A DNA stretch of 29,851 nt from IMG/VR virus record IMGVR_UViG_3300050133_000010, positions 1 through 29,851 of that record; one strand, 5' to 3'. Shown here piece by piece: positions 20,525-23,106 of the stretch (within the stretch, counting starts at the first letter, position 1; each line of letters begins with the position of its first letter). A program made the translations under genes and the position numbers. The notes under the pieces are model-generated. The model had not been told where the DNA came from. It did not search any database and saw nothing but the letters and a program-made list of their open reading frames with translations. This DNA is from a virus.

Positions 20525-22510
20525 TTATGACGGGAGTCGTTTAGAGCGGCGCTTGCGCGGCTCGTTGTTTTCTTCGGGAAGAATGACGCCGGGTAACTGG
20601 AAGCTCGGCTTTGGCTCAACCACACGCGGTGCAGCGACCAGCTTGTCCGGGTTGGCTTCCACGCTGTCGGCCAGCGCGTTTAGTTTCAGGCCCGAATGCA
20701 TCAGGCCATGCAGCGCGGCGTAGTTGTAAACACGACAGTCCAGCGCCTCGTTAGCGCGTCCCGGTCGCAGCTCCCACACGCGGTACGGATAGCCGCCGGA
20801 ACGTTTCACAATCGAACGCTCGGCCAGCAGCTGGCTGAAGTAATTCAGGTCGCGGTCCGCCGGGTAGTGCATGTAACCAGCCTGCCGTTCGCCCGGTGCG
20901 GGCGGGTCCAGGTGCAGCCGGTTGCGGATCGCATCCTTTGCGGCGTTGACGCCGATAATGATCGGGCGGTACGCCGATTTGCTGCGTTTGGACGGCTTCT
21001 GGTTAGGCCAGACAGGAGAACGCTTCCCATTGCGGGCAGATTCGCCCTTAATCGCCCAAATGCGGCGACCAATGCGCTCTTTTGCAAAGGTGTACACCGC
21101 CTGCGTATGGTGGCCGCCCGAGTCGATACAGGCCGCCATGATCGGGAAGCCCCGACCGTCGGCCCGGCGCCATATTTGTTTCAGGTACGCATCAAGGCGC
21201 ATCCACGGTTCCGGCGTGTCCATATCGCCCTCGATCACGTCGTAGGCAATGGACCAGCTTTCCTCGTTGCGCCCCCAGCCGGTGACTTCCACCTCTAAGC
21301 GTCCGTCCTGCGTATCGATGCCAGCCGTAAGGAGGGCAACGCCATCCGGGACTTCCGCGCCGAATACTTCGGTGCGTTCGACCAGCTTTTTCTCGCTCAG
21401 CGCTTTCTCGCCAGAATCCTCATAAGGCAGGCCCAGCGTGGTGTTGATGAAGGTCTGGCGCATTACCGGGTCGTCTTTAACGCCCAGCCATTCCTCAACC
21501 AGCTTTTTCCAGGCGGCGTTCGGGAACAGGCTGTACGCGGTCCAGATGTGAAACCCGGCGTGGCCCTTAAACGGCTTTGTCGCGCGCCATTCGCCACGCT
21601 GTAGCATCAGCGGTAAATCGGTGTGCTGGATAACGCAGCCGTTATGGCGGCAGGCGTAATAAGCCGTTTCGGGCAGGCCGTTGCCGTCCTCGTCGCGTTC
21701 CCATTTGATGCCGTAAGGCGACGTGCGGTCGCCCCACTCCAGCACCTGAAATTCGTCGCAGTGCGGACACGGCATGAAGTAGTAGCGCTGGTCGCTGTCG
21801 TTGAAGGATTTCTCAATACGGCTGACGCCCTTCACCGTCGGCGTTGAACCGATGCCAATCTTGCGGTTCCAGTAGGATTCGGATCGCTTCTTACCCAGGG
21901 CAATCTGGTCGCCCTCGTTGCCTGCGCCGCTGGCGGGATAACCGTCCACCTCATCAAACAAAATGATGCGGCACGTAATACGGCGAAAGCCGCCGGGGCT
22001 GTTGGCACCAATCAGGGTCAGGCTGGAACCGTTGATGAAGGTTCGCTTCGCTATCGTCTGGCTGCTGTCTTTGGCTTTGGGACCGCCGACCAGCGCTGCC
22101 AGCTGCGGGGTATCGCGGATCATCGGGGCGATTTCAGTTTTACTGTAATCTTCCGCATCGTCCTCGCGCGGCTGCACGGCCAGAATCGGCGACGGGTCAT
22201 GCCCGATGTAATAGGCGATTACGTGGTCGAGGATTTTGGTGTAGCCGACGCGGGCCGATTTCATGACGCTTACCGTTTCCACATTCGGATCGGTGAAGGC
22301 GTCCATGATGCCGTCCTGATACGGGAAGGAACGGAAGCGGCCCGTTTGCGATGATGTCTCTTTCGACAGCACCGCGTATTTGTTCGCCCATTCACTGAGG
22401 CGAAGTGGTTCTGCAGGTTTTAATGCGCGGCGCACGGCCAGCAGCAGGCTTTTGAAATTCTGCCAGGCTGACGGCTTATCCGCTGCCTGGTCGTTCGGTT
22501 GCGTCTGCAC
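20525..22510 (-). CDS. terL: terminase large subunit (lambda gpA family)
   Basis: Packaging motor ATPase and cos endonuclease. The 661 residues compare with 641 in lambda gpA. The deviant Walker A VMKSARVGYTK is at about 82-92, Walker B RIILFDEVDGYP at about 181-192, and a zinc-ribbon-like CPHCD with a later ACRHNGC near 250-300. The nuclease region starts around LLTAGIDTQDGRLEVE and contains AACIDSGGHHTQAV. The gene begins 35 bases inside the end of the frameshifted small subunit, so the two are coupled. A GpA-type enzyme predicts cos rather than headful packaging. Confidence 0.96.
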   Translation of the reverse strand: MQTQPNDQAADKPSAWQNFKSLLLAVRRALKPAEPLRLSEWANKYAVLSKETSSQTGRFRSFPYQDGIMDAFTDPNVETVSVMKSARVGYTKILDHVIAYYIGHDPSPILAVQPREDDAEDYSKTEIAPMIRDTPQLAALVGGPKAKDSSQTIAKRTFINGSSLTLIGANSPGGFRRITCRIILFDEVDGYPASGAGNEGDQIALGKKRSESYWNRKIGIGSTPTVKGVSRIEKSFNDSDQRYYFMPCPHCDEFQVLEWGDRTSPYGIKWERDEDGNGLPETAYYACRHNGCVIQHTDLPLMLQRGEWRATKPFKGHAGFHIWTAYSLFPNAAWKKLVEEWLGVKDDPVMRQTFINTTLGLPYEDSGEKALSEKKLVERTEVFGAEVPDGVALLTAGIDTQDGRLEVEVTGWGRNEESWSIAYDVIEGDMDTPEPWMRLDAYLKQIWRRADGRGFPIMAACIDSGGHHTQAVYTFAKERIGRRIWAIKGESARNGKRSPVWPNQKPSKRSKSAYRPIIIGVNAAKDAIRNRLHLDPPAPGERQAGYMHYPADRDLNYFSQLLAERSIVKRSGGYPYRVWELRPGRANEALDCRVYNYAALHGLMHSGLKLNALADSVEANPDKLVAAPRVVEPKPSFQLPGVILPEENNEPRKRRSKRLPS

Positions 22511-23080
22511 TCAGCTCCTCCATTGCTTCGCGAATGATGTCATCAAGCGCGGCGGTAAATTCCTTGTCGTCGCTGGTCAGGGCAAGCAATCGCAGGCGGG
22601 GGCCGTGTTCAGGGGCAATAGCATTCAGACGGGTACGGATACGCCCGTACTCATCTCCGACGGCGTGGATCATGTCCTCAAAAGGCATAAGCCGCCCGGC
22701 CTTCTGTTCGTAATCCAGCTGGACCAGCTTCGCGTGAAAGTTGGCTTTCACGGTGCGCGCTTCGTCCAGCGTCAGGTTCGCGCCGTAGTCTTTGACTAGC
22801 CGTTCGGCAACGTTGGCGATGTGCTGCTCATCGTCTCCGTCGTCACCGTCACCGGCTGGTCCGCTGTTACCTCGATCCGTATCCTCAGCGTTACCTCGAT
22901 TACGGACGATTTCTTTTTTTTTTCAGGGCGGGTAACAGTTTTCCGATAGCGCTCGATGTTCGCGTTTGACGCCTCAACATCCACCTCGTCACCGACCTGA
23001 ACCAGCCAGCCGCGTGCCTTCCACGTTGTGACCGTCTTCCGACTTACGCCGTGAAGTTTTGCAAAGTCAGCCTGATTCAT
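22476..23080 (-). CDS. terS: terminase small subunit (Nu1-like), full length by -1 frameshift
   Basis: The zero frame from ATG 23080 encodes a winged-HTH (MNQADFAKLHGVSRKTVTTW, with KARGWLV) and stops after 94 codons. Slipping back one base at A AAA AAG (22913-22919, inside a run of ten A) opens the -1 frame for 145 codons to 22476. This gives 201 residues, close to Nu1 (181). The -1 part has the expected helical small-terminase C-terminus (HIANVAERLVKDYG, ANFHAKLVQLDYEQ, TRLNAIAPEH, REAMEELSA). I see a stem-loop 6 bases downstream. Alternatives are transcriptional slippage on the A-run, a real inactivating indel, or a sequencing error. Confidence 0.78.
22796..23080 (-). CDS. short zero-frame product of the small terminase gene
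   Basis: Without frameshifting, translation gives 94 residues: the DNA-binding N-terminal HTH (about 1-30), a linker with RPEKKKK at 51-57, and a 38-residue Thr/Val-rich tail ending at TAG 22796-22798. This form would keep the DNA-binding domain but lack the part that normally contacts the large subunit. It could act as a competitor at cos or simply be a by-product. Confidence 0.55.
   Translation of the reverse strand: MNQADFAKLHGVSRKTVTTWKARGWLVQVGDEVDVEASNANIERYRKTVTRPEKKKKSSVIEVTLRIRIEVTADQPVTVTTETMSSTSPTLPNG
22876..22919 (-). other. putative -1 frameshift signal in terS
   Basis: The slippery sequence A AAA AAG (22913-22919) has the dnaX-type heptamer in the correct phase. After a 6-base spacer comes a stem: TCCGTA (22906-22901) pairs with TACGGA (22881-22876), and TC/GA extends it past a one-base bulge. 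Spacing and layout match known bacterial -1 signals. No strong upstream internal Shine-Dalgarno is seen. Confidence 0.65.
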
Positions 23081-23086
23081 CTTTTT

Positions 23087-23106
23087 GTTACCTGTTACCT
23101 GTTACC
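23087..23106. repeat. GGTAAC iterons, possible cosB-like terminase sites
   Basis: Three tandem 7-bp repeats read GTTACC on the + strand (23087, 23094, 23101), just before the terS start. Further copies lie inside terS at 22866 and 22890, and an inverted one at 22931. Iterated sites beside and within the small-subunit gene are where cosB sites bound by Nu1 are found in lambda. Binding by this HTH protein is inferred. Confidence 0.5.

Follow-up and report, generated by a model that had tools for sequence, protein, structure and literature searches.

A phage small terminase gene that probably encodes two selected isoforms through slippage at a conserved A-run

The best-known cases of recoding in tailed phages are tail chaperone genes. 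In E. coli dnaX, −1 frameshifting yields the shorter of the two products and requires both a Shine-Dalgarno stimulator and a hairpin. Programmed transcriptional slippage on poly-A has been described for Citrobacter rodentium tssM1 and Shigella spa13 (PMC4256274, PMC5009743). In tssM1, RNA polymerase slippage on A11 yields a short and a full-length form, both of which are needed (PMC4256274). RNA polymerase slippage on nine A is highly efficient in vivo (reviewed in PMC5009743), and magnesium chelatase gene cassettes with A7, A9 and A11 gave 10, 40 and 63% frameshifting, respectively, in E. coli (PMC3711429). As for small terminases, the N-terminal domain of the lambda protein forms a tight dimer on cosB (PMC4669245), and contact with the large subunit is made by its C-terminal part (PMC6739421). 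The PICI protein Rpp, which is small and has a winged-helix domain, binds lambda TerS and redirects packaging (PMC6739421), which indicates that such a winged-helix partner can matter for packaging. The literature searched on terminase frameshifting yielded only a possible case of bypassing in the terminase of Streptomyces phage Hau3, and no report of recoding in a small terminase subunit was found in searchable papers.

The small terminase gene (terS) analysed here lies on the minus strand, running from 23080 to 22476 of the window, i.e. the whole stretch of 29,851 nucleotides of viral DNA under study (IMG/VR record IMGVR_UViG_3300050133_000010); the strand was absent from the preliminary description of this DNA. 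As is typical of the gene order of small terminases, terS is directly upstream of the gene for the large subunit, of GpA type, followed by those for a gpW-type joining protein and a lambda-type portal protein. The coordinates of all features are provided in Table 1.

Table 1. Features of the terS region and of the partition genes in the window.
Feature	Position	Strand	Remarks
ParA-type ATPase, plasmid partition	313–1488	+	
SopB-type centromere-binding protein, plasmid partition	1488–2516	+	
Large terminase subunit, GpA type	20525–22510	−	Overlaps the end of terS
−1 frame, residues 57–201 of the fused small terminase	22476–22912	−	Linker and C-terminal helical domain
terS zero-frame ORF, 94 aa	22796–23080	−	ATG at 23080, stop at 22796
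24-codon overlap	22841–22912	−	Zero frame is the constrained frame
GGTAAC hexamer in overlap	22866–22871	−	
Predicted hairpin 3' of the run	22872–22909	−	Not conserved in divergent members
GGTAAC hexamer in overlap	22890–22895	−	
Heptamer A AAA AAG, in phase	22913–22919	−	
Slip run, exactly ten A	22914–22923	−	Followed by G at 22913
GTTACC, inverted hexamer inside terS	22931–22936	−	
Tandem array of three GGTAAC hexamers immediately 5' of the terS start	23087–23106	−	Candidate terminase or operator sites

The zero frame ends after 94 codons, as had been described. Its codons 53–56 read GAA AAA AAA AAG, and the A-run within them is the sole run of ten A or T in the window. The product comprises a winged-helix DNA-binding domain (residues 1–48), a poly-lysine joint and a private C-terminal tail beginning with KSSVIEVTLRIRIEVTADQPVTVT, so that the original account of a product with the DNA-binding domain only holds for the domain and fails for "only", as a conserved tail is encoded as well. 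The −1 frame remains open until a TAA at 22476, and joining the two frames at the A-run results in a fusion of 201 residues. Residues 1–199 of this fusion match the profile phrog_57 (terminase small subunit) with an E-value of 9e-25, in agreement with the claim that the −1 frame completes a small terminase of 201 residues. An Rfam search of the terS region returned no element, and E. coli genomes contained no near match to terS, with distant matches to the N-terminal part only.

The same two frames, in the same phase, were found in eight further distinct sequences from public viral and genome collections (L002, L003, L004, L005, L006, L110, L112 and L183), i.e. in nine including the window. 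Among these, L004 is the same as L034 (Pantoea stewartii) and plasmid ppDSJ01 (L115), and L005 is the same as L025 (Rouxiella badensis); L113 and L114 are near-copies of L112 and were counted with it. A conserved homopolymer of about nine or more A occupies the joint, as in poly-A frameshift genes: eight of the nine members have A10 and L110 has A9 (GTA AAA AAA AAG), and the run ends in the same codon phase in every one. With the run, its phase and the two frames shared by eight other distinct sequences, two frames joined at a ten-A run are confirmed as a real arrangement beyond chance.

A tree was computed for 77 distinct terS sequences, i.e. the nine frameshift members and 68 relatives with one continuous frame. 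The nine formed a single clade with a support of 100/100, which fits one origin of the frameshift arrangement. The sister set, with a continuous terS frame, includes phages BZS1 and phiNP; thus, relatives with an in-frame gene, which the preliminary description had listed as potential counter-evidence, exist as a sister group but not as close relatives, the frameshift group being monophyletic. In the in-frame set, the longest A-run of the linker is mostly 5–8, reaching nine in three sequences and ten in none. Given that A8 is frequent and A9 occurs in three of these relatives, a long A-run at this place is by itself no sign of recoding. The three relatives with A9 linkers (L105, L073 and L074) might also yield some short product by slippage, and the alternative frame of L105, read by eye, looks open across its GGTAAC array, with Val-Thr repeats.

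Given that run and phase are conserved, that both frames are constrained, that the arrangement has a single origin and that the C-terminal part lacks a conserved start, terS is very likely one gene that gives rise to two selected terminase isoforms via slippage at the A-run. Two products from one terS, as initially proposed, are the likely outcome, with the frameshift conserved across the clade and both frames constrained. Standard reading would produce a short protein, consisting of the winged-helix DNA-binding domain plus the private conserved tail. Slippage at A9–A10 with a net shift of −1 would produce the 201-residue small terminase with its C-terminal domain, either through an mRNA with one extra A or two fewer or through a ribosome stepping back on A AAA AAG.

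The joint had been regarded as a dnaX-type site with a stem-loop after the heptamer. If the shift were the work of the ribosome only, tRNA-Lys would slip back by one base on A AAA AAG, as happens in E. coli dnaX, with the 3' hairpin as an aid. In favour of this reading, the heptamer is in the correct phase in the window and all eight relatives, as had been stated for the window, and a hairpin follows 3–4 bases after it in the window and most close relatives. The 43-nt segment 22912–22870 folds at −13.7 kcal/mol with a z-score of −2.4, which weakens in longer windows (−1.2 at 53 nt and −0.3 at 96 nt), so its standing as a predicted structure is modest. However, the hairpin pairs are broken in L110, L112 and L183, the three most divergent members, without compensating changes, although the A-run is kept; over 45 nt, the hairpin region of L110 reaches just −2.3 kcal/mol, and RNAalifold assigns a slightly unfavourable covariation term (+0.57). 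By inspection, no Shine-Dalgarno-like stimulator was found upstream of the run in GTTACCCGCCCTG or its equivalents, and in every member the run exceeds the needs of the heptamer. Hence, alignment of the relatives bore out the heptamer in all nine members, while the stem-loop, present in the window, was lost in three and does not qualify as a conserved stimulator; the dnaX-type reading with a stem-loop stimulator is not supported.

The A-run is thus the only element conserved throughout, and 9–11 A are known to suffice in enterobacteria, so we lean, if slightly, towards RNA polymerase slippage as the larger contributor. Polymerase slippage on A9–A10 would account for the conserved parts equally well as ribosomal slippage, and codon choice cannot separate the two, as the conserved A's are nearly identical under both. 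Purely ribosomal slippage keeps a real if smaller share of the probability, with the remainder falling to a mixture of both processes.

Selection on the two frames was assessed by counting substitutions in four pairs with little or no common branch (window–L110, L112–L183, L003–L006 and L004–L005). Across these pairs, changes cluster on zero-frame third positions upstream of the A-run, the pattern of a coding region, and on −1-frame third positions over the far C-terminal region. Of the 24 changes within the 24 codons that directly follow the A-run, 22 fall on zero-frame third positions, and 22/24 are silent in the zero frame versus 3/24 in the −1 frame. Random placement yielded 7.2 ± 2.2 silent changes in the zero frame, with none of 5000 simulations reaching 22, and a model in which only the −1 frame is constrained yielded 4.5 ± 1.9. 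The tail KSSVIEVTLRIRIEVTADQPVTVT of the short product is the same in the window and L110. Because the overlap substitutions are silent in the zero frame far above random expectation, the short product's own tail is, by these counts of few substitutions in four pairs only, under purifying selection. The −1 stretch opposite the tail drifts and corresponds to a linker for which disorder is predicted. Purifying selection acts on both frames, in line with what is seen in poly-A frameshift genes. In our view, the apparent constraint on the tail, which was absent from the earlier account, is the most informative result of this study.

Alternatively, the zero-frame conservation after the slip could reflect DNA sites, namely the GGTAAC array, with the short product as a by-product. 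The two GGTAAC hexamers in the overlap are invariant, and all in-frame relatives have such arrays, in another frame. Nevertheless, DNA sites would not be expected to impose a strict three-base substitution rhythm over 72 bases, as found here, and the conserved peptide reaches well beyond the hexamers, so that we consider this explanation improbable.

A further alternative is phase variation, in which the run length would change in the population DNA and genomes would switch between encoding the short product only and encoding the full-length one. Replication readily slips on long A-runs, and the four locus copies in the long-read record of Rouxiella badensis DSM 100043 (CP114059), which shows one intact gene with A8, carry 6, 7, 8 and 8 A. 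Yet in the Illumina assembly of this strain the run is A10, and given this and the disagreement among the four copies, the short counts are read as long-read homopolymer error. Reads with eight or eleven A, named beforehand as potential counter-evidence, thus occur in one long-read record only and are put down to homopolymer noise. Moreover, all nine short-read or reference sequences have the out-of-register length and none the in-frame length, and a packaging protein would be an unusual kind of phase-variable gene. Overall, phase variation is quite unlikely. The CP114059.1 entry itself (L119–L121, R. badensis pSP2), a circular plasmid record of 116.6 kb, looks like a wrongly assembled version of a hairpin-ended linear phage-plasmid of roughly 48 kb, with inverted repeated gene copies and four terS that differ in A-run length.

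In a split gene, the C-terminal protein would be made from an internal GTG, with no fusion. RefSeq/NCBI annotates ppDSJ01 in this way (L115, 3001–3602), with two ORFs for hypothetical proteins, the second from a GTG, and the small terminase is missing from the annotation. In the window, the first possible start of the −1 frame is the GTG at codon 111, but five of the nine members have GTT, GTA or GTC instead, and in L110 and L183 an NTG first occurs at fusion codon 148 or 138, well within the C-terminal domain. Furthermore, the third-position bias of the −1 frame is already present at residues 96–110, past the zero-frame stop and before the first possible NTG. As the −1 frame is constrained upstream of any conserved start codon, the fused product is needed, which makes a split gene very improbable. 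Likewise, the proposal that a frameshift at the A-run is required for the full-length protein is supported by the missing conserved independent start and by conservation across the clade.

Finally, a sequencing error or a decaying gene has a negligible probability, since, although homopolymers are the classical site of indel errors, nine independent sequences agree, with isolate assemblies among them—that of Pantoea ppDSJ01 being based on Illumina data at about 200x–3,000x coverage for plasmids (PMC5454200)—and both frames are under purifying selection.

As regards what the two products might do, an AlphaFold model of an in-frame homologue (moderate confidence, pTM 0.31) consists of a winged-helix domain (residues 1–48), a disordered linker (49–82) and a helical C-terminal domain, and the A-run maps to the boundary between DNA-binding domain and linker. 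No confident fold was predicted for the short-form tail, which had no phage homologues at an E-value of 10. Sequence searches found no solved structures and nothing convincing in NCBIfam, and the fold search returned weak winged-helix matches only (best E-value of 0.12; weak Foldseek matches to 6hn7 and 7lw0).

In the in-frame relatives, GGTAAC arrays inside the gene fall in the linker and are read as Gly-Asn repeats. The GGTAAC cluster is likely a terminase-binding array inside terS that also encodes a protein linker, i.e. a candidate site. In BZS1, cos is just upstream of terS. A perfect inverted repeat that flanks the run and is invariant in the nine members, CTGTTACC / GGTAACAG, was considered as a frameshift signal and rejected because each half belongs to the GGTAAC site family, which is also present in in-frame relatives.

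By analogy with lambda, the short form would bind DNA, presumably at the GGTAAC sites that the full-length form would also occupy, and is expected to be unable to recruit the large subunit, as it is without the domain expected to do so. Acting by itself or in mixed dimers, it could cap the GGTAAC sites, limit or gate packaging, or repress its own gene. Its private tail is encoded in the opposite frame of the candidate terminase-site array. A more speculative possibility, which we hold only tentatively, is that the two isoforms are co-selected and the short one serves hairpin-ended phage-plasmids as a built-in regulator of packaging, for example by keeping cos uncut in the plasmid state.

With respect to this lifestyle, SopA/SopB-type partition genes, as in N15-type linear phage-plasmids, are found at 313–2516 of the window. 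Within the frameshift clade, six IMG/VR records carry a protelomerase gene (PF16684), as do ppDSJ01 and pSP2; the clade records without a match are fragments of 6–30 kb, including the 29.9-kb window, and all near-complete records carry one. No protelomerase was detected in 18 long records with in-frame terS, and one was found in a distant in-frame linear plasmid, Orbaceae CP133961. This plasmid (CP133961.1, L117) is linear and carries, in addition to the protelomerase, a related, shorter in-frame terS, and thus constitutes an outgroup of the same lifestyle. In N15, which serves as the model of linear phage-plasmids, the small terminase gene is in frame and has no such A-run. Accordingly, the frameshift belongs to one clade of hairpin-ended phage-plasmids, and linear phage-plasmids do not require it; given the single origin of the clade, the association between frameshift and lifestyle counts as one event.

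If real, the arrangement would enable one gene to set the ratio of the full packaging subunit to a partner that only binds DNA, and it would offer a simple genetic handle on the control of terminase stoichiometry and cos recognition. It also carries two warnings for annotation, as such a gene may be split into two hypothetical proteins, as by RefSeq in ppDSJ01, or displayed as one intact gene through an apparent homopolymer error, as in the long-read assembly.

Among known systems, terS resembles tssM1 and spa13 in that the zero-frame product is truncated after a long A-run and the slipped product regains a C-terminal domain, in an enterobacterial host. It differs from them in gene and process, in that slippage in terS is deduced from comparison, and in that the tail of the short product has its own apparent purifying selection. 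With dnaX it shares the heptamer A AAA AAG in the same phase; however, the shifted product of terS is the long one, its hairpin is not conserved and no upstream stimulator was seen. In architecture, terS follows the lambda gpNu1-type or phrog_57 proteins of BZS1 and phiNP, with an N-terminal winged-helix domain, a linker and a C-terminal helical domain, encoded before a GpA-type large subunit, but the small terminases of BZS1, phiNP and N15 are read in a single continuous frame. Rpp is likewise a small winged-helix protein without the part that binds the large subunit (PMC6739421), and it serves as a working analogue of the short form only: Rpp belongs to a parasite element and alters cos specificity, whereas the short form is a product of a gene of the phage itself, with an identical DNA-binding domain. 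Finally, SPP1 gp1 is a small terminase with a binding site overlapping its own gene, for which the title of a paper (reference 69 in PMC6316719) gives dual packaging and repressor activity; unlike the window, SPP1 is a pac phage and gp1 involves no frameshift.
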